Under the pieces are notes generated by a model. The model was not told the origin of the DNA. It saw only the letters and a program-made list of their open reading frames with translations, and ran no database searches. From positions 30,455 through 63,629 of IMG/VR virus record IMGVR_UViG_3300030107_002418: 33,175 nt of DNA; one strand, 5' to 3'. How positions within the stretch are numbered: position 1 is the first letter of the stretch; each line of letters starts with the position of its first letter. A program made the translations under genes and the position numbers. Shown here in pieces: positions 21,316 through 33,175 of the stretch. This stretch comes from a virus.

Positions 21316-21951
21316 TTAATAAATATCCCCATACCTGTATTCATCCTTACTTCCTAAAACTTCTACTCTATTTTTCAAGCTAGATAAACCACTAGCAAAA
21401 CGACCTTCAAACATTTGAGTTTCAGCAGGGTCTAATTTTAAAAATATCGCAGCTTCTACTAAAGATCCATAAAATAATGTATCTCCAGCATTAGTCCCAA
21501 GCCAACTTGTTCCATCTGATGTAGCTGTTATTGATTGAGGGTTATAAACATAATGTAATTCAAAAGTATAATTGGCATTTGGGGCTGGTGCTAGTATAAA
21601 AGTATTTTCATCAAAAAGTGCATAATATAAAGGATTACCTGTTGTTGCAGTTGCTGGAGTGTAATCTCTTATAAAAGAAACATCTTTTAATAATAGGTAA
21701 TTGTAATTACTATCACTGTCTATTAATGCTAAACTAAGGGGGGTTAAAAAATCTGTTGGCATCGCTAGGTATGTGTTTCCACTTGATGCTGTGCCTGTTA
21801 CGTTTTTTCTAAAAACAGGTATTTGTACGTTTTGTAGAATTCTTTGTTCAGCTTCCTGTATAAAAATAGGTAGGTTACTGACAAAGGTTGAATCAGCACT
21901 TTCAACGTAATCTTGAATAGCTGACTTTAATGTAGTGTATGTCCAGTTCAT
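21316..21951 (-). CDS. Head-tail adaptor-like protein (SU10 adaptor type)
   Basis: This protein has 211 residues. The helical start TYTTLKSAIQDYVESADSTF then PIFIQEAEQRIL resembles podovirus adaptor proteins (L...I..yl.r.D......p.fI..aE.ri). The middle is beta-rich (FRKNVTGTASSGNTYLAMPT). The C-terminal helices (LVEAAIFLKLDPAETQMFEG) would pack against the portal. This role places it at the portal exit together with the gp4-like protein. The start overlaps the end of the four-cysteine gene by 4 bases (ATGA). Confidence 0.65.
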   Translation of the reverse strand: MNWTYTTLKSAIQDYVESADSTFVSNLPIFIQEAEQRILQNVQIPVFRKNVTGTASSGNTYLAMPTDFLTPLSLALIDSDSNYNYLLLKDVSFIRDYTPATATTGNPLYYALFDENTFILAPAPNANYTFELHYVYNPQSITATSDGTSWLGTNAGDTLFYGSLVEAAIFLKLDPAETQMFEGRFASGLSSLKNRVEVLGSKDEYRYGDIY

Positions 21952-22316
21952 GATGTTGTCACCGTTAATGTTCCTACTTCCCCTGTCATTTTAAATGGAT
22001 CCCCAACGGTTACGTGGGGGAACATAGTACCTATAACTTCTGGGATAGTGTTGTATGGTCCAACTTGCGTTGAAGTATATGGACCGTATGTTATTATTGT
22101 TCCTAACCCAACTTCTTGATCAACATTAGGTCTAGGATTCCACAACGCTTCTGCATCCAGAACACGAGGAACTGGATCTAGTTGTGGTTCTTTTGGATCA
22201 TAACACTCTGGACAAACCTTTAAATCATTCCATTGTTTTCTTAATTCTAAGTAGGGGTAAGCCCATCCACATGTATCACATATTCCTTGAGCATATGTGC
22301 CTTTAGCGTATGCCAT
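21948..22316 (-). CDS. Small protein with N-terminal four-cysteine zinc-ribbon-like motif
   Basis: This protein has 122 residues. C13-x2-C16 (GICDTCGW) and C35-x2-C38 (KVCPECYD) are set to hold one zinc ion, with YPYLELRKQWNDLK between them. The rest is a Pro/Thr-rich strand region (DPVPRVLDAEALWNPRPN, then Gly/Thr turns). The same four-cysteine arrangement recurs in neck-region proteins of marine phages, as I recall it. It sits between the gp4-like and adaptor-like genes with overlaps of 1 and 4 bases, so it is probably a neck or head-closure component. A DNA-binding role is an alternative. Confidence 0.72.
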   Translation of the reverse strand: MAYAKGTYAQGICDTCGWAYPYLELRKQWNDLKVCPECYDPKEPQLDPVPRVLDAEALWNPRPNVDQEVGLGTIITYGPYTSTQVGPYNTIPEVIGTMFPHVTVGDPFKMTGEVGTLTVTTS

Positions 22317-22984
22317 TAATAGTTTCTCCTAGGCACTAAATGTAAACTGTTTCTGCCTTGATCTCCCGCTACTGCTCTTGCAAAATCCTCTTCATACAAA
22401 GGCTTTAGTATTTGTATTCTTTCAGGATTCTTTTTAAGTGCTAGATAAAAAGCTAGTCCTGAAACCATAGGGGCAATAAAGCGACTAGGTACATCAGGAT
22501 CATTTACTGAGGTGTTTACATCATCTATTCTTTGTATTCTATTTGAAACAAAAATATCTGTTGAATTTTCTGGTGCTGGCCAAACGTATAGAACAGGAGT
22601 AGTTTGTCTGTCTAAGAAATATTCTGTTGGTCTAGCTTTAGTTGATTTAGTTGGTATGTTTAAATACTCATCTCTTCCGATACTACTCAGTTGAAAATCT
22701 GTTACTGTATTACCAACAGTTCTTCTGATTACAGCATCTATTATATCTATATCGTATGCATTTAAAGTGTAGTTATTTTGACCCTCAACCATTGTCAAAT
22801 TGACTTGTGTGATTGTCCAAACATTTACACCCCTGTTAGCCCAATCACTGAACATGATGTTCAGTGAGCGACGGGCTGTTACTGCGTCATATCCTGTACG
22901 CAACTCCAGCCCTGCCAACTCATACGCTTCTTCCATGACAGCTGCGGTATCAAGACTAAATGTTTTAGTTCCTGATGTAGCCAT
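22316..22984 (-). CDS. Head completion / tail accessory protein (P22 gp4-like)
   Basis: This protein has 222 residues. The N-terminal helices contain AAVMEEAYELAGLELRTGYD, then ARRSLNIMFSDWANRGVNVW, matching the pattern (A...aG.......s...al..LN.ml..W...G..lw) of the P22 tail accessory factor family. The following segment is beta-rich (QVNLTMVEGQNNYTLNAYDI), and the C-terminal helices carry PMVSGLAFYLALKKNPERI. In P22, gp4 binds under the portal and seals the filled head. The neighbouring four-cysteine, adaptor-like and hub-like genes complete a podovirus neck set. The start is four bases after the upstream stop. Confidence 0.72.
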   Translation of the reverse strand: MATSGTKTFSLDTAAVMEEAYELAGLELRTGYDAVTARRSLNIMFSDWANRGVNVWTITQVNLTMVEGQNNYTLNAYDIDIIDAVIRRTVGNTVTDFQLSSIGRDEYLNIPTKSTKARPTEYFLDRQTTPVLYVWPAPENSTDIFVSNRIQRIDDVNTSVNDPDVPSRFIAPMVSGLAFYLALKKNPERIQILKPLYEEDFARAVAGDQGRNSLHLVPRRNY

Positions 22985-22987
22985 TTG

Positions 22988-23410
22988 TTAAGATCCTGGT
23001 GCTTCGTAGTATTTTAAAAACTCACACCAAACTGTGTATTCATTACCTGCATCTGAGGTAGAAGGCACAACTAAAAGTACATCTCCTGAGTAACCTGTGG
23101 CGGAAGTGTTTTTAAGACCACCAATCTCACTGAAATCAAAAGAATTATCATAAGCTAATGTTAAAAAAGTTACATCAGTGTCTGCATCCCAATCCAGAGA
23201 AGCTGGGGCATCCGTTCCCCCACCCACGCTGTACCATATCTTATTTAAAGACACGTGAGCACAAGATTCTCCTTCTGGATTTGTGTTGAGAGCAGAAACG
23301 TCTACTAATGTAGTACTGCTCGCACTTCCGTCTGAAAGAACGGATGCATACACAATAAGCTTTTTATCACCATCAAATTGATTAGTTGGACCTGTGACTG
23401 TATTAGCCAT
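22988..23410 (-). CDS. Small virion structural protein
   Basis: This protein has 140 residues. It starts MANTVTGPTNQFDGDKKLIV and is beta-rich throughout, with VYASVLSDGSASSTTLVDVS and WCEFLKYYEAPGS at the end. No catalytic motif is seen. The composition (Asp/Ser/Thr/Gly, few Lys) and position after the capsid and decoration-type genes suggest a head surface or head-tail joining protein. A GAGG-type ribosome site precedes the ATG. Confidence 0.72.
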   Translation of the reverse strand: MANTVTGPTNQFDGDKKLIVYASVLSDGSASSTTLVDVSALNTNPEGESCAHVSLNKIWYSVGGGTDAPASLDWDADTDVTFLTLAYDNSFDFSEIGGLKNTSATGYSGDVLLVVPSTSDAGNEYTVWCEFLKYYEAPGS

Positions 23411-28121: not shown

Positions 28122-30470
28122 TTATTCTCCTCGGCTTTTCGTGTCGGCTTCTCGTACTTGTTTAAGCGTTTCCGCAAATGTACGTTCAGCTTCTTGTTGA
28201 GCCTGTATTAGTGTTTTCTCTCGATCTGCTGCAATCTTCATTTCAGCAATCGCCTCATTAGATATTATTTTCTCTGCATCAAGTTGTGCCTGTGTTGCAT
28301 CTTTTTGTGCACGTTGGGCAATTTCTTCACGTTGTACCTCTATAACTGGGTCAATACGTTGTAACTCAACAGCTTCTTGAACTGCTTTCGCTTTTCCTGT
28401 TACTTCGGCTGTGGCTTGTGCAGCAGCTTGAGCAATTTGATTCATAATCTCTGGTGTGATTTGCTCAAGTGGTGGTAATGGTTGTCCCATTGCCTGCTCT
28501 ACCTGCTGTTTGTAAAGCATTGCTTGATGTTCTTGTATATTGGCACTTATCATTTGTGCTACCTGTGGTTGCTGTTGAACCATAGGATTTTGTATAAATG
28601 CACTGTGGTTCGCAATATAGGCTTCATGATCTTGCCATTCAAAAGCTTGTATAGGTTGTCCTAACATTGCTGCTTGTTCTTCCGATATCGGATCTCTAGG
28701 AGGAACAGGTTGCTGCTGTTGAAATAACGTGTCTACGTTTTTAATTTCTAATGCGTCATACATTCTGCGGTAGGCTTCTGGTAGGTTATGTATATCTGGT
28801 GCTGCCTGAGCCATTTGTAGCATTTGTTGTGCAATTAAAACACGTTGTGCCATTGAAAATATATTTGGGTCACTAACAGGAAGAACGTCAACTCTTTCAT
28901 CAAAGTCTGCAGCCATTACATACCCTTTTCCTCCTGGCATTGCATAAGGGTATTGTTCTGGTAGGTATTTACCGTAAAGTTCTCCTAATAATTTGAATTC
29001 TTTCTTTTGTGCAAAATGTAAGCGTTTGTGGATAGCTGACATTACTTTAGTTCCACGTTCTAGCATAGCCACCGTAGTTCCTACTGGGACTTCTTGATTA
29101 CCTAAGTCCCCCATCTGCATATCCGTAATAGAAGCGAATCTTCTACCTGAATCGACAAGTACACCTAATAATTGAGCCAATACTGTAGAAGGCTCTTTAT
29201 AAGGTAACGGCATTAGAGAATCTTTTATTGTAGCACCAGCTACATCAACGTCTCTAAATTCTCCAGGTTGTAGGGGATCGTTTTCACCTTGAATACGCAT
29301 ACCTCTAGCTTTAAACCCAGCTGGTAAATTTGCTAATGTTCCTGCGTCAATTAATTGTCTTAATATAGCAGTTACTGATTTAGTTAAACCACCAATCATG
29401 TGAATTAAACCAAAACCATAAAACCCTAATCCTGGGAGGAATTTATATTGTACAAAATAATCTACTTTTTGATAATTAGGATCACCTTCCTGCCAATTTC
29501 TGCGTATGGCTAAAATCTTACTGGTGTCTTTACATATAGTTACTATATAAGGGCAAGCAAATCCATGGTCTTCTATTTCAGAAATCGTTAAGTTTACATG
29601 CATCTCCAAAAGAGTGTACATGTCATTGTTTTCTGCGTAGTTAGGAGTAACCCCATCCATTCTATCGATTTTTTCTTTAACTTGATTTTCGTCTGGTACA
29701 CCTGCTCCTGTCATATCCATTTCTAGATACATGCCGTTAAGTTGCATTTTACGCAAATCGTTTTCCGTCATAGTCATGACGTGAGTGTATCGTGGTGAGT
29801 TAAAAAGGTCAGTAGTGGAATAACTCACCACAAAATCTTCAGCTTTAACAAATTGACTAACTGCTCTGTTAAGCATAGTGTCAAAATAAACTTTTTTAAA
29901 CGCACTTCCAGATAACGGTAAATAGAATAAAAGTGAATCCATTTCTGGATCATATTCTTCCATAACGTGAGTGATCTGATAATTCATGAATTCTTTCACA
30001 CGCCTAGCTTGTTGAACTACTTCTGTGTTGTCATCGCCTACCACTTCTACAGAAACTGGACCATCAGCTGGGAGTAACTCTTTATAAGCTTGCGATTGGA
30101 ATTGCGTAACAGCTTCACTTAATAATGGGTGATTGACTCCGCTCGCTCCCTCAAATGGTTGAGTACGTTCTTCTTGTTTTATACCTAATAAATCTAGTCC
30201 TTTTGCAAAAGCTGTGTACCATTCACTTCTAGATTCTTTATCTTCTTCGTAATAGTTTATTAACTCACTGGCTAATTTACTTAATGAAGAATCGTCAAGA
30301 ACTTCTGCTAAATTATCTTGAAAACCTGTTTCTGGGGTTTGTGCCTCAGGCATGAAATCTACAACTGCAGATCCATCATCCTCTAATTCTACTTCAATTT
30401 CTTCTTCTTCGAAGGGAGGAACTTCGTCTACTTCTCCTAAGGGAACTTGAACACCTTTCTCTACTGCCAT
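28122..30470 (-). CDS. Portal protein (P22/SU10-type)
   Basis: This protein has 782 residues. The acidic N-terminus (1-45) precedes helices with SELINYYEEDKESRSEWYTA (about 67-86) and the portal signature QPFEGASGVNHPLLSEAVTQ then FQSQAYKELLP (about 102-132). The core includes RRVKEFMNYQITHVMEEYDP. The region GGLTKSVTAILRQLIDAGTL (about 363-382), followed by an Asn-Leu-Pro-Ala-Gly turn, is typical of the stem/clip of large podovirus portals. The C-terminal 100 residues are a long Gln/Ala/Glu coiled coil, like the P22 barrel. It forms the dodecameric DNA gate of the head and binds TerL. It follows TerL by 29 bases. Confidence 0.9.
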   Translation of the reverse strand: MAVEKGVQVPLGEVDEVPPFEEEEIEVELEDDGSAVVDFMPEAQTPETGFQDNLAEVLDDSSLSKLASELINYYEEDKESRSEWYTAFAKGLDLLGIKQEERTQPFEGASGVNHPLLSEAVTQFQSQAYKELLPADGPVSVEVVGDDNTEVVQQARRVKEFMNYQITHVMEEYDPEMDSLLFYLPLSGSAFKKVYFDTMLNRAVSQFVKAEDFVVSYSTTDLFNSPRYTHVMTMTENDLRKMQLNGMYLEMDMTGAGVPDENQVKEKIDRMDGVTPNYAENNDMYTLLEMHVNLTISEIEDHGFACPYIVTICKDTSKILAIRRNWQEGDPNYQKVDYFVQYKFLPGLGFYGFGLIHMIGGLTKSVTAILRQLIDAGTLANLPAGFKARGMRIQGENDPLQPGEFRDVDVAGATIKDSLMPLPYKEPSTVLAQLLGVLVDSGRRFASITDMQMGDLGNQEVPVGTTVAMLERGTKVMSAIHKRLHFAQKKEFKLLGELYGKYLPEQYPYAMPGGKGYVMAADFDERVDVLPVSDPNIFSMAQRVLIAQQMLQMAQAAPDIHNLPEAYRRMYDALEIKNVDTLFQQQQPVPPRDPISEEQAAMLGQPIQAFEWQDHEAYIANHSAFIQNPMVQQQPQVAQMISANIQEHQAMLYKQQVEQAMGQPLPPLEQITPEIMNQIAQAAAQATAEVTGKAKAVQEAVELQRIDPVIEVQREEIAQRAQKDATQAQLDAEKIISNEAIAEMKIAADREKTLIQAQQEAERTFAETLKQVREADTKSRGE

Positions 30471-30499: not shown

Positions 30500-32071
30500 T
30501 TAATAGTAAACCATTTTCCGTTCACGATAACCATCGTACTCGTCTTCGTAATCGGAAGCTAATTGTACAAAACCACCTTGACGAAATCGCAAAATCGCCT
30601 GACTCATACTATCCACCAAGTCATCGTGGTCGCCTGCGGGGAATGCCACACATTCTTCGACCATTTCATCTGCCCATGGTTGATCAGGTCTCCAAACCAT
30701 ACCTGATTCAAACAACGGTGTACAAGAATTAACCCTTGCCACTTTATCCGCTCCTTTACTTGGTGTGAAATTTTGTACAGGAATACCAATCCTGCGTAAT
30801 TCTTGCGTTAACGGAGTACCACTACCCTTAGACTCAATGATTACTGTATCTGGTTCCCAATATTCGTAAAGTTCTAGGGCTTTCCTTTTTAGTTCTGGGA
30901 ACTCTAGTCGTTCTTTTACAGAATCCAATAATATAAGGTGAGCGACATCGCCGTTATACATTTCCTCACCTATACGTCCTTCTGGGTAAAATACTCCCCA
31001 AGTTGTAATAGCTGAATAGTCCGAAGTCTGAGTTTTTAAAAATGCCGTATCGTAACTTTGAATAATATAGTCACAAGGTGGGGGCGAACTCTTTTCCCAA
31101 GTTTTCCACCACTCCCTTTTAATAAGTGCACCTTCCTCGGACGTTGGCTTCTGCATGTATTGAGCATGCCATTTTGGACCTTTACCCAGTGCAGCTTGTA
31201 CTCCTTCTAGTTCTTCTAGCGACCAGTATTCTGGCCAGACTGGATCACCGCTGGGCAAAATCGCAGGTAACTCGATAACTTCCCACTGATCGTTCTTGTC
31301 ACTTTTGCCCATGTCCCGCACTAATCGACCTGTTAAATCTCGGACTGACCATCTTGTCATTACTACTACAATAGCCCCTCCAGGTTGCAAACGCTGTCTC
31401 GGTCCAGAAGTGTACCACTCGTAGGCTTCATCCAATGCCGTTTTTGACATAGCATCTTGCTCTGAGTGGGGGTCGTCGATTATAAACAGATCCGCACCAC
31501 GACCAGCAATTGCACCACCGACACCTGCCGCATAGTACTCGCCTTGAATCTTAGAGTTCTTTTTAGATCTCGTTTCCCACTTACCTGCAGCTTGTGAATC
31601 TGGGTGCAGAGACACATCTGGGAATATCGCTTGATAACTGGACGTTGCAAACAGGTCTCTCACTTTACGTCCGAATTTTACAGCAAGGTCTGCCGTGTGC
31701 GTTGCTTGAATAATTTTAAGTCCTGGTCTCTTTCCGACTAACCACGCTGGGAACATGTGACTTGCGAACTCTGATTTAGTGTGCCTTGGTGGCATATTTA
31801 TTATAAGACGTTTTAATCGACCATCAGCGATGCGCTCGAAGGCGTTCGCCATTATACGATGGTGACTGCCCTCTACGAATTGTGGCCACTGAGATTTAAC
31901 AAAGTCTAGAAAACTTTGTTCGCATTTTTCTACTTGATTGAGTTCTTTGAGCCTCTCCGTAAGTTCGAGATACTCTTCTAGTATTTCTTTTGGTAGCTGG
32001 GACCAGAGTTCTTTATCTATTTCCAAAATAATTTTGCAGCAAATTTTTATACATGATAAACCGAAAAGCAT
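30500..32071 (-). CDS. terL: Terminase large subunit
   Basis: This protein has 523 residues from the ATG at 32071 (weak ribosome site; a start nearer residue 16 is possible). The ATPase domain has a Walker A variant MPPRHTKSE (93-101), Walker B LFIIDDP (195-201) and a coupling motif VVVMTRWS (235-242). The RNase H-like nuclease has acidic residues in SYDTAF (D341), IIESKG (E413) and DHDDLVDS (D483, D484, D487). It pumps DNA into the head and makes the packaging cuts. Walker A has a proline in place of the first glycine, as in many marine phage terminases. No small-subunit gene is obvious beside it, although the divergent plus-strand genes are candidates. Confidence 0.93.
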   Translation of the reverse strand: MLFGLSCIKICCKIILEIDKELWSQLPKEILEEYLELTERLKELNQVEKCEQSFLDFVKSQWPQFVEGSHHRIMANAFERIADGRLKRLIINMPPRHTKSEFASHMFPAWLVGKRPGLKIIQATHTADLAVKFGRKVRDLFATSSYQAIFPDVSLHPDSQAAGKWETRSKKNSKIQGEYYAAGVGGAIAGRGADLFIIDDPHSEQDAMSKTALDEAYEWYTSGPRQRLQPGGAIVVVMTRWSVRDLTGRLVRDMGKSDKNDQWEVIELPAILPSGDPVWPEYWSLEELEGVQAALGKGPKWHAQYMQKPTSEEGALIKREWWKTWEKSSPPPCDYIIQSYDTAFLKTQTSDYSAITTWGVFYPEGRIGEEMYNGDVAHLILLDSVKERLEFPELKRKALELYEYWEPDTVIIESKGSGTPLTQELRRIGIPVQNFTPSKGADKVARVNSCTPLFESGMVWRPDQPWADEMVEECVAFPAGDHDDLVDSMSQAILRFRQGGFVQLASDYEDEYDGYRERKMVYY

Positions 32072-32221: not shown

Positions 32222-32258
32222 GTTAATTAATAGCCTTATAGCTACGCTATTAATTAAC
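32222..32258. other. Perfect 12-base inverted repeat
   Basis: GTTAATTAATAG (32222-32233) and CTATTAATTAAC (32247-32258) are exact reverse complements around a 13-base loop. The TTAATTAA cores are themselves palindromic. This could be a dimeric operator, an origin element or a hairpin in RNA. Confidence 0.7.
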
Positions 32259-32259
32259 C

Positions 32260-32280
32260 CTTTACTTTTATAAAGTAAAG
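32260..32280. other. Nine-base palindrome CTTTACTTT-tat-AAAGTAAAG
   Basis: Perfect 9-base arms with a 3-base centre, directly next to the 12-base inverted repeat. The AAGTAAAG arm recurs at 32286-32293 and, in both orientations, in front of the second plus-strand gene (32961-33008). Confidence 0.7.
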
Positions 32281-32308
32281 TAGTAAAGTAAAGGGGTAAG
32301 TAAGTAGT

Positions 32309-32323
32309 AAGTAATTATTACTT
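32309..32323. other. Seven-base palindrome AAGTAAT-t-ATTACTT
   Basis: Exact arms with a single central base. It follows a stretch of GTAAG/TAAGTA direct repeats (32296-32312). A size of 15 bases suits a dimeric repressor. Confidence 0.5.
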
Positions 32324-32333
32324 AGTTATAGGT

Positions 32334-32349
32334 TCCGCGTAATAGCGGA
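32334..32349 (+). other. Small hairpin TCCGC-gtaata-GCGGA in leader of plus-strand gene
   Basis: Five-base GC stem and 6-base loop, 28 bases before the ATG at 32377. If transcription begins upstream, it lies in the 5' untranslated RNA. Confidence 0.4.
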
Positions 32350-32376
32350 TGTGTATAAAAAGTATAGGAAATGCTT

Positions 32377-32724
32377 ATGTCTAAGAAGACAGCGAAAGTA
32401 AAAGCCCAACTCAATAGAGTTGACGCTTTGAATATCCTACGCGAAGCAATTGGCGACGATGCTGACTTAGCGAACGCACTTGATGTGTTCTCTAAAGTTA
32501 ACAACAAGAAAGCCAACACTAGAGGCTTCAAGGCTGACCACGTTCTAGAACGTGGAGCCAAGACTCCTCAAGCTGGTTACATTGCTGACCGTGTGGAAAT
32601 GGTTGCTGGGATGACAGTTGCAGATGCTATGAGTCAAGTGCCTAATGGGCATCATGGTTCATACCGTTATGCTGATATCGCTTACGATATCAAGTGCGGT
32701 TATCTGCTAGATCCTAGAAGCTAA
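32377..32724 (+). CDS. Plus-strand protein of unknown function, paralogue of next gene
   Basis: This protein has 115 residues. I choose ATG 32377 because AGGA stands 7 bases before it, and the second plus-strand gene has the same AGGAAATGCT leader where only the corresponding ATG is in frame. The N-terminal half is helical (TAKVKAQLNRVDALNILREA then GDDADLANALDVFSKV); the C-terminal half carries VAGMTVADAMSQV and YRYADIAYDIKCGYLLDP, which could be a winged-helix-like fold. It is encoded away from terL and is probably the first early gene. It could be a regulator or a terminase small subunit; neither is shown by a clear motif. Confidence 0.72.
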   Translation: MSKKTAKVKAQLNRVDALNILREAIGDDADLANALDVFSKVNNKKANTRGFKADHVLERGAKTPQAGYIADRVEMVAGMTVADAMSQVPNGHHGSYRYADIAYDIKCGYLLDPRS

Positions 32725-32876
32725 AGAATAGAGTCAATTACTGACTGATTCGGTGGAATTCCGAAGGGACACCCCTGCGCAGCAAACAGGAATTCAATCT
32801 ACCCCAATCTAGATTCATATTAGGGTATAGGTAATAGGCATTGTGCATTGTACTATTGTACTTCTTTTTGTCTTTT

Positions 32877-32937
32877 TGGCAAGTGGCAAGAAGGTAGATT
32901 CACGGTACTGGCAAAAGGTAATTCTAGGTACTGGCAA
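32877..32937 (+). repeat. TGGCAA direct repeats
   Basis: TGGCAAG occurs twice back to back (32877-32890) and GGTACTGGCAA twice at a 23-base period (32904-32914 and 32927-32937). Four copies of TGGCAA in 61 bases suggest a multi-site operator or iteron-like element. Confidence 0.6.
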
Positions 32938-32960
32938 TTGCGTAATCAGACGTAAATAAC

Positions 32961-33008
32961 CCTTTACTTTCACGTAGTCTTAAGTATCATAGTAATTATA
33001 AGTAAAGG
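32961..33008. other. Spaced inverted repeat CCTTTACTT / AAGTAAAGG
   Basis: Exact 9-base arms at 32961-32969 and 33000-33008, 30 bases apart. The arms match the palindrome at 32260-32280 in the other intergenic region, so a common binding protein is likely. Confidence 0.55.
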
Positions 33009-33070
33009 AGTTTACTTAGATTCGCGACCCTAGTTGTCGTGGTAATATTAACCTTGATTAAGGAAATGCT

Positions 33071-33175
33071 ATGAAAGATCAAGCAAAAGTTCAACCTAGT
33101 GTTGAAGAGGCTCAAGCCCTAGTCGGAGTCGCCGTATCTGGTGACAAAGATCTGGAGTCTGCGCTTCAAGTTCTT
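33071..33175 (+). CDS. Second plus-strand protein (partial, 3' end outside window)
   Basis: Thirty-five codons are visible from ATG 33071, preceded by AGGAAATGCT; an upstream ATG at 33065 is out of frame and meets TGA after one codon. The sequence contains QAKVQPSVEEAQALVGVAVS then GDKDLESALQVL. It lines up with residues 5-37 of the first plus-strand protein (AKV at the start, then a central AL, GD.DL and AL.V), which suggests gene duplication. The remainder is cut by the window edge, so no function can be assigned. Confidence 0.65.
   Translation, partial: MKDQAKVQPSVEEAQALVGVAVSGDKDLESALQVL

Follow-up and report, generated by a model that had tools for sequence, protein, structure and literature searches.

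Gp5.7 of phage T7 is a small winged-helix-like phage protein that represses promoters on the phage genome that depend on the host RNA polymerase (PMC5569994), and Stf76 of the Sulfolobus plasmid-virus pSSVx is an autoregulated winged helix of 76 amino acids (PMC4027180). Pelagiphages of the HTVC023P type have been described as widespread and abundant, and a curli module has already been described in them (PMC9599517). The genome of the cultured phage HTVC027P has no RNA polymerase gene, and none of its early genes has a known function (PMC12753301). Here we describe two small phage genes, A and B, carried by a 33,175-nucleotide stretch (hereafter the window) that corresponds to positions 30455–63629, the right half, of a linear IMG/VR record of 63,629 bases. 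Like Gp5.7, the A and B proteins are small and phage-encoded, are proposed to work at early promoters used by the host RNA polymerase and lend themselves to a winged-helix-like reading, but unlike Gp5.7 they had no sequence or fold match in PDB searches. The comparison is an analogy indicating that such a role exists, and makes no claim of membership. To our knowledge, Gp5.7 has not been described as belonging to a three-member paralogous set with box-bearing promoters of its own. With Stf76, A and B share a very small size and, as proposed below, sites in their own promoters and autoregulation; in contrast, Stf76 is archaeal and we detected no relationship between it and A or B.

The large terminase gene terL (30500–32071, minus strand; PHROG 38, E 2e-108), the divergent neighbour of gene A, is 54–60% identical to terL of HTVC023P, HTVC027P, the environmental phage 023Pt_psg01 and DSL-LC04. 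Like the first three of these, which are HTVC023P-type phages, ours has a curli-cyclase module of the type described (PMC9599517) and a variable island of genes separating terS from terL; unlike ours, they lack the A/B family, and the promoter box described below is nearly absent near their terminase genes. The curli module lies on the minus strand of the same record outside the window (L006:9182–14257, record ~24.2–29.3 kb) and comprises a CHASE2-adenylate/guanylate cyclase, two curlin-repeat proteins, a FecR-domain protein and CsgG. A run of undetermined bases within a repetitive ORF (L006:15094–16209) adjoins the left edge of the window, marking the record as a scaffold in which sequence is either missing or masked. 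The record also encodes a Mor-like helix-turn-helix protein (L005:10240–10572, minus strand; Pfam Mor, E 7e-8), a further candidate transcription regulator.

Gene A (32377–32724, plus strand) is a complete ORF of 115 amino acids, with its ATG at 32377 and its stop at 32722–32724, and is kept in at least 18 contigs at 55–97% identity. Following the region to the right, as originally suggested, showed that the record ends inside gene B, of which the first 35 codons are present (33071–33175, plus strand); complete copies obtained from related contigs encode about 122–130 amino acids. In these contigs terS (Terminase_2, E 1.7e-9) directly follows B on the minus strand, and the order terL(−), A(+), B(+), terS(−) recurs in at least 14 distinct marine contigs as far as these extend, within which the lowest identity is 55–56% for A and 57% for B. 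A and B are a conserved two-gene plus-strand island between terL(−) and terS(−), always found together and in the same context, and given this conserved order they do not lead a long operon on the plus strand. The original prediction that the pair opens a plus-strand arm thus had to be given up, there being no continuous arm in the relatives, and the idea that A and B head an early arm was dropped because terS comes next. Its placing of the genes at the head of the early region was right only in part, since terS, on the minus strand, comes after B.

Although BLASTP of the single A sequence against the single B sequence gave no match, profile–profile comparison aligned the two proteins at E 8e-7 with 4 and 2 sequences, and at E 9.7e-9 over 94 columns, nearly the whole length, with 12 and 12. 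The score of 42.6 compares with 13.4 for the best of 200 column-shuffled A profiles, so that full-length B aligns to A well beyond chance, and the N-terminal likeness first noticed proved to be the beginning of an alignment spanning almost both proteins. In a reciprocal HMM search of ~3,080 ORFs, all full B proteins led the non-self matches of the A profile and A copies led the matches of the B profile; among 226 real phage ORFs A and B were mutually first-ranked. Protein identity between the two is ~25–30%, and in a tree of the conserved core (a short alignment, read without the row big_G011, whose translation was in the wrong frame) A groups with B with a local support of 0.90. On these sequence comparisons A and B are paralogues; matches of B to Edwardsiella phage proteins (E 0.5) were discarded as chance.

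When 80 related contigs from a terL scan were searched with the A/B profile, many were found to encode small relatives of 74–102 amino acids, often with Lys/Thr-rich tails. The family alignments are shallow and share a core of ~55 residues, R..xN.xRH...GKTV.EaL....aDIkYDlkkGfitl, which reads GG(L)...YTATGKiARAxHNAeRHeelnGKTVxEaL......aDIKYDlkkGFITLE in the small relatives; A and B both carry R..xN.xR....GkTv.ea....DI.YD...G. A profile built from these relatives only, leaving out A, B and a third protein, C, recovered A of the window's own genome at E 6e-10 and, across contigs, A at E 1e-9 to 3e-3, B at E 6e-6 to 3e-4 and C at E 8e-4 to 0.046. Membership of A and B in this family is therefore well supported by profile searches.

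Protein C (176 amino acids; L005 7443–7973 of the record, minus strand, outside the window) is a longer paralogue whose C-terminal part corresponds to the A/B core. Its additional N-terminal domain (residues 41–124) matches phrog_4730, of unknown function, at E 1e-4; that family matches neither the A/B core nor A or B themselves. C was initially a weak candidate (E 0.0016) and was accepted because all its copies rank directly beneath A and B among 226 proteins and because longer C-like relatives match the family profile at E 2e-5 to 2e-9; the statistics relating it to A and B are weaker than those relating A to B. Six genomes (G000, G006, G007, G008, G010 and G011) have three members each, two small and one long, the set of G000 being A, B and C; in the near-complete genomes checked, the two small copies lie near terL and the longer gene elsewhere. 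The additional domain differs in the longer copies of G006 and G010. The paralogous pair proposed at the outset thus stands, as part of a family that also has a longer member elsewhere in the genome.

The family had no match above cut-off in Pfam, PHROGs, NCBIfam or PADLOC. Tblastn queries with A, B, C and their relatives found nothing in 50,697 phage records, a scan of genome contigs found no relative, PDB sequence searches returned chance matches only, and the family was absent from the cultured relatives examined. Pfam ETX_MTX2 matched one member (L081:1190–1495) barely above cut-off; this toxin identity was rejected, the match sitting on the Thr/Lys-rich tail and looking compositional. As judged from these searches, the A/B family is a previously undescribed phage protein family.

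Both genes are preceded by the same 10-base leader, as originally noted: AGGAAATGCT has just two copies in the window, one before A (32366–32375, plus strand) and the other before B (33061–33070, plus strand), against an expectation of 0.10 (two or more copies in 1 of 100 shuffles), and is in each case the ribosome-binding-site region. The motif AAGTAAAGG occurs five times in the window against 0.62 expected, a number reached in none of 100 shuffles, at 32259(−), 32286(+), 32961(−), 33000(+) and, within terL, 30753; an 18-mer, TAA[T/A]TAACCCTTTACTTT, is repeated at 32251 and 32953 with 94% identity. Together with the profile alignment and its shuffled controls, these repeated boxes support tandem paralogues with duplicated control sites. 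The inverted pairing once read into the motif held only in part: it is over-represented in the window, but only the CCCTTTACTT arm is kept in relatives, the second arm being kept only within other dyads. A dedicated inverted-repeat operator in its simple form was thus rejected, since the conserved arm is a −35 element and the other arm is unconserved, and the AAGTAAAGG/CCTTTACTT motif is mostly a promoter element.

The conserved arm contains TTTACT; past a 16-nt spacer comes TATAAT or TATCAT at B and TATAGT in several A promoters. The −35-type box of A, CCCTTTACTTT (32258–32268, plus strand), is present in all 13 aligned A leaders when CCG variants are counted, and a TTTACT-16-TATAGT promoter of A is seen in L004, L007, L011 and L021; the window's own A promoter has a poor −10. 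An inverted copy of the box, AAAGTAAAGGGG, in the A promoter region (32285–32296, plus strand) is unconserved in the L012 subgroup. At B, the promoter formed by CCCTTTACTTT, a 16-nt spacer and TATCAT (32960–32990, plus strand) is conserved in all B leaders, and the box lies at promoter position in both genes (at 32258 and 32960).

The association of the box with the family extends beyond the window. Of 14 family genes in five genomes, 11 have CTTTACTT no more than 160 nt upstream, compared with 5 of the 124 other genes that have an intergenic gap (Fisher p 2.5e-10), counts that are not independent since the family genes are related to each other; the exact box is missing at the remaining 3 of the 14. 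In G007, six of the eight CTTTACTT copies in 60 kb lie upstream of its three family genes. Of 25 family promoters checked, 21 have the box 15–18 nt ahead of a −10-like hexamer, and in distant members it is often doubled, with the second copy within the −35/−10 spacer. Duplication could carry a promoter along with its gene; the A and B proteins have diverged to ~25–30% identity while the box persisted. The five non-family genes with the box include primase-like genes in two relatives and, in this genome, an SNF2-like helicase gene, which stands alone on the plus strand (21597–23045 of the record) with the box 110 nt upstream and may share the promoter class of the family. The terS gene (L003:3386–3952) and its homologues have a conserved promoter of their own, TTTACTTT(A/T)(G/A)AACAGTGGT...TATAAT, and a leader hairpin; TTTACTTT is a relative of the family box.

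In both leaders the elements follow in the same order, promoter, dyad, hairpin and ribosome-binding site. The dyad of A, AAGTAGTAAGTAATTATTACTT (32301–32322, plus strand), has perfect 14-nt arms in L007, and that of B, AAGTAAAGGAGTTTACTT (33000–33017, plus strand), lies directly past the −10 box; its AAGTAAAnnAGTT portion is kept, and its right arm is shorter in the L012 subgroup. The hairpin of the A leader (TCCGC...GCGGA, 32334–32349, plus strand) covaries, with 13 alignment cells changed on both sides and a score of 0.655 against 0.208 in shuffled alignments, reached by none of 500 shuffles. The hairpin of the B leader (CGCGA...TCGTG, 33023–33041, plus strand) is paired in 100% of cells, shows two-sided changes in four of its five pairs and has a covariation score likewise matched by none of 500 shuffles. 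Across 24 family genes and 90 control leaders, dyads and hairpins were more stable in the family (median z −1.45 vs −0.40, p 5e-5), and the hairpin sequence differs between A and B and from distant members. Two further small hairpins with paired, covarying substitutions follow straight after the A stop (32732–32765, plus strand) and had no Rfam match; Rfam and tRNA searches over this region yielded either no hits or hits at chance level. Four TGGCAA direct repeats (at 32877, 32884, 32909 and 32932, spanning 32877–32937, plus strand) precede the B promoter; their number differs among relatives, and they are possible iterons or a packaging site.

AlphaFold2 models of A (pLDDT 82 in the one confident model of five) and B (pLDDT 77) agree in the order of their elements, with two helices at the N-terminus followed by helix, short strand, helix, helix and strand, an order that fits a winged helix in both, though model confidence and alignment depth are low. 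The second half of A and B may thus be winged-helix-like. Foldseek searches gave no significant match for either model in the PDB or for the B model among the BFVD viral models, and the family had no sequence match to any DNA-binding family in the profile databases. Most members are basic (pI 9–10.4), many with Lys/Thr-rich N-terminal tails; A, C and the others are basic, and B is acidic, with pI values of 4.7 and 5.9 for the two members calculated.

We give about an even chance to the proposal that A and B are small, sequence-specific DNA-binding regulators of early phage transcription controlling their own promoters. The self-regulating pair originally envisaged is the function best supported, if circumstantially, by the shared −35 box with its extra copies, the dyads and the covarying leader hairpins. 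According to this model, each gene would be transcribed by the host RNA polymerase from a promoter of its own (−35 TTTACT, 16-nt spacer, −10 of the TATCAT/TATAGT type); the proteins would then bind the CTTTACTT boxes, which overlap the −35 and the spacer, the dyads immediately downstream, or both; binding would limit their own synthesis, and A and B would also adjust other box-bearing promoters, namely those of C, of the SNF2-type helicase or primase gene and possibly of terS. Homology, the island, the box association, structured covarying leaders, the predicted order of elements and a basic pI favour a regulatory role, and regulators of this kind would be plausible among phages related to HTVC027P, which has no RNA polymerase and only unassigned early genes, although HTVC027P itself lacks the family. 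Conversely, the absence of a family or fold match, shallow alignments, a single confident A model and an acidic B weaken it, as do the three family genes without an exact box and the possible inheritance of promoters by duplication. As B is acidic and A and the others basic, B may partner or antagonize A instead of binding on its own. An extended, lineage-specific version, a three-protein circuit in which basic A and the longer C would bind CTTTACTT and acidic B would act as antagonist or heterodimer partner, timing early transcription by the host RNA polymerase, is speculative and improbable.

Since the box coincides with a −35 hexamer, it may be read by the sigma factor only. It would then simply be a strong −35 element for host sigma-70 in a class of early promoters, and A and B would be early host-takeover factors diversified by duplication, for example binders of the host RNA polymerase or of other host proteins. 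We consider this rather unlikely, while recognizing that the box sits exactly at the −35 position, that related boxes also precede terS (TTTACTTT), the SNF2-like helicase gene and primase, that B is acidic and that the lack of PADLOC, Pfam and PHROG matches is what fast-evolving takeover genes would be expected to show. However, the box copies in the spacer and the dyads past the −10 would be superfluous for a plain promoter, and the core GKTV-EaL-DIkYDl-G is kept in all copies, unlike in typical orphan inhibitors.

The remaining alternatives concern the DNA or RNA around the genes. A and B might serve packaging or replication by binding the TGGCAA repeats and dyads in the terL–terS intergenic DNA, which would belong to a pac or origin region, a role that would suit an island held between the terminase genes in all relatives of the subgroup, with repeats and structured elements in its intergenic DNA. 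This seems quite improbable to us: the small copies of related phages can be as far as ~8 kb from terL, with terS located elsewhere, C is far from the terminase genes, and the promoter box is tied to the family genes themselves. Still less probable is that A and B are RNA-binding proteins autoregulating translation through the leader hairpins instead of DNA operators. A covarying hairpin does stand between promoter and ribosome-binding site in both leaders, and family leaders are more structured than controls, but the hairpin sequence is not common to A and B or to distant members, and the DNA box is the better-conserved feature.

In conclusion, the A/B family extends the marine virome by a protein family not described before and provides small, concrete, testable candidate regulators with a defined promoter motif in an uncultured lineage related to the HTVC023P-type pelagiphages.
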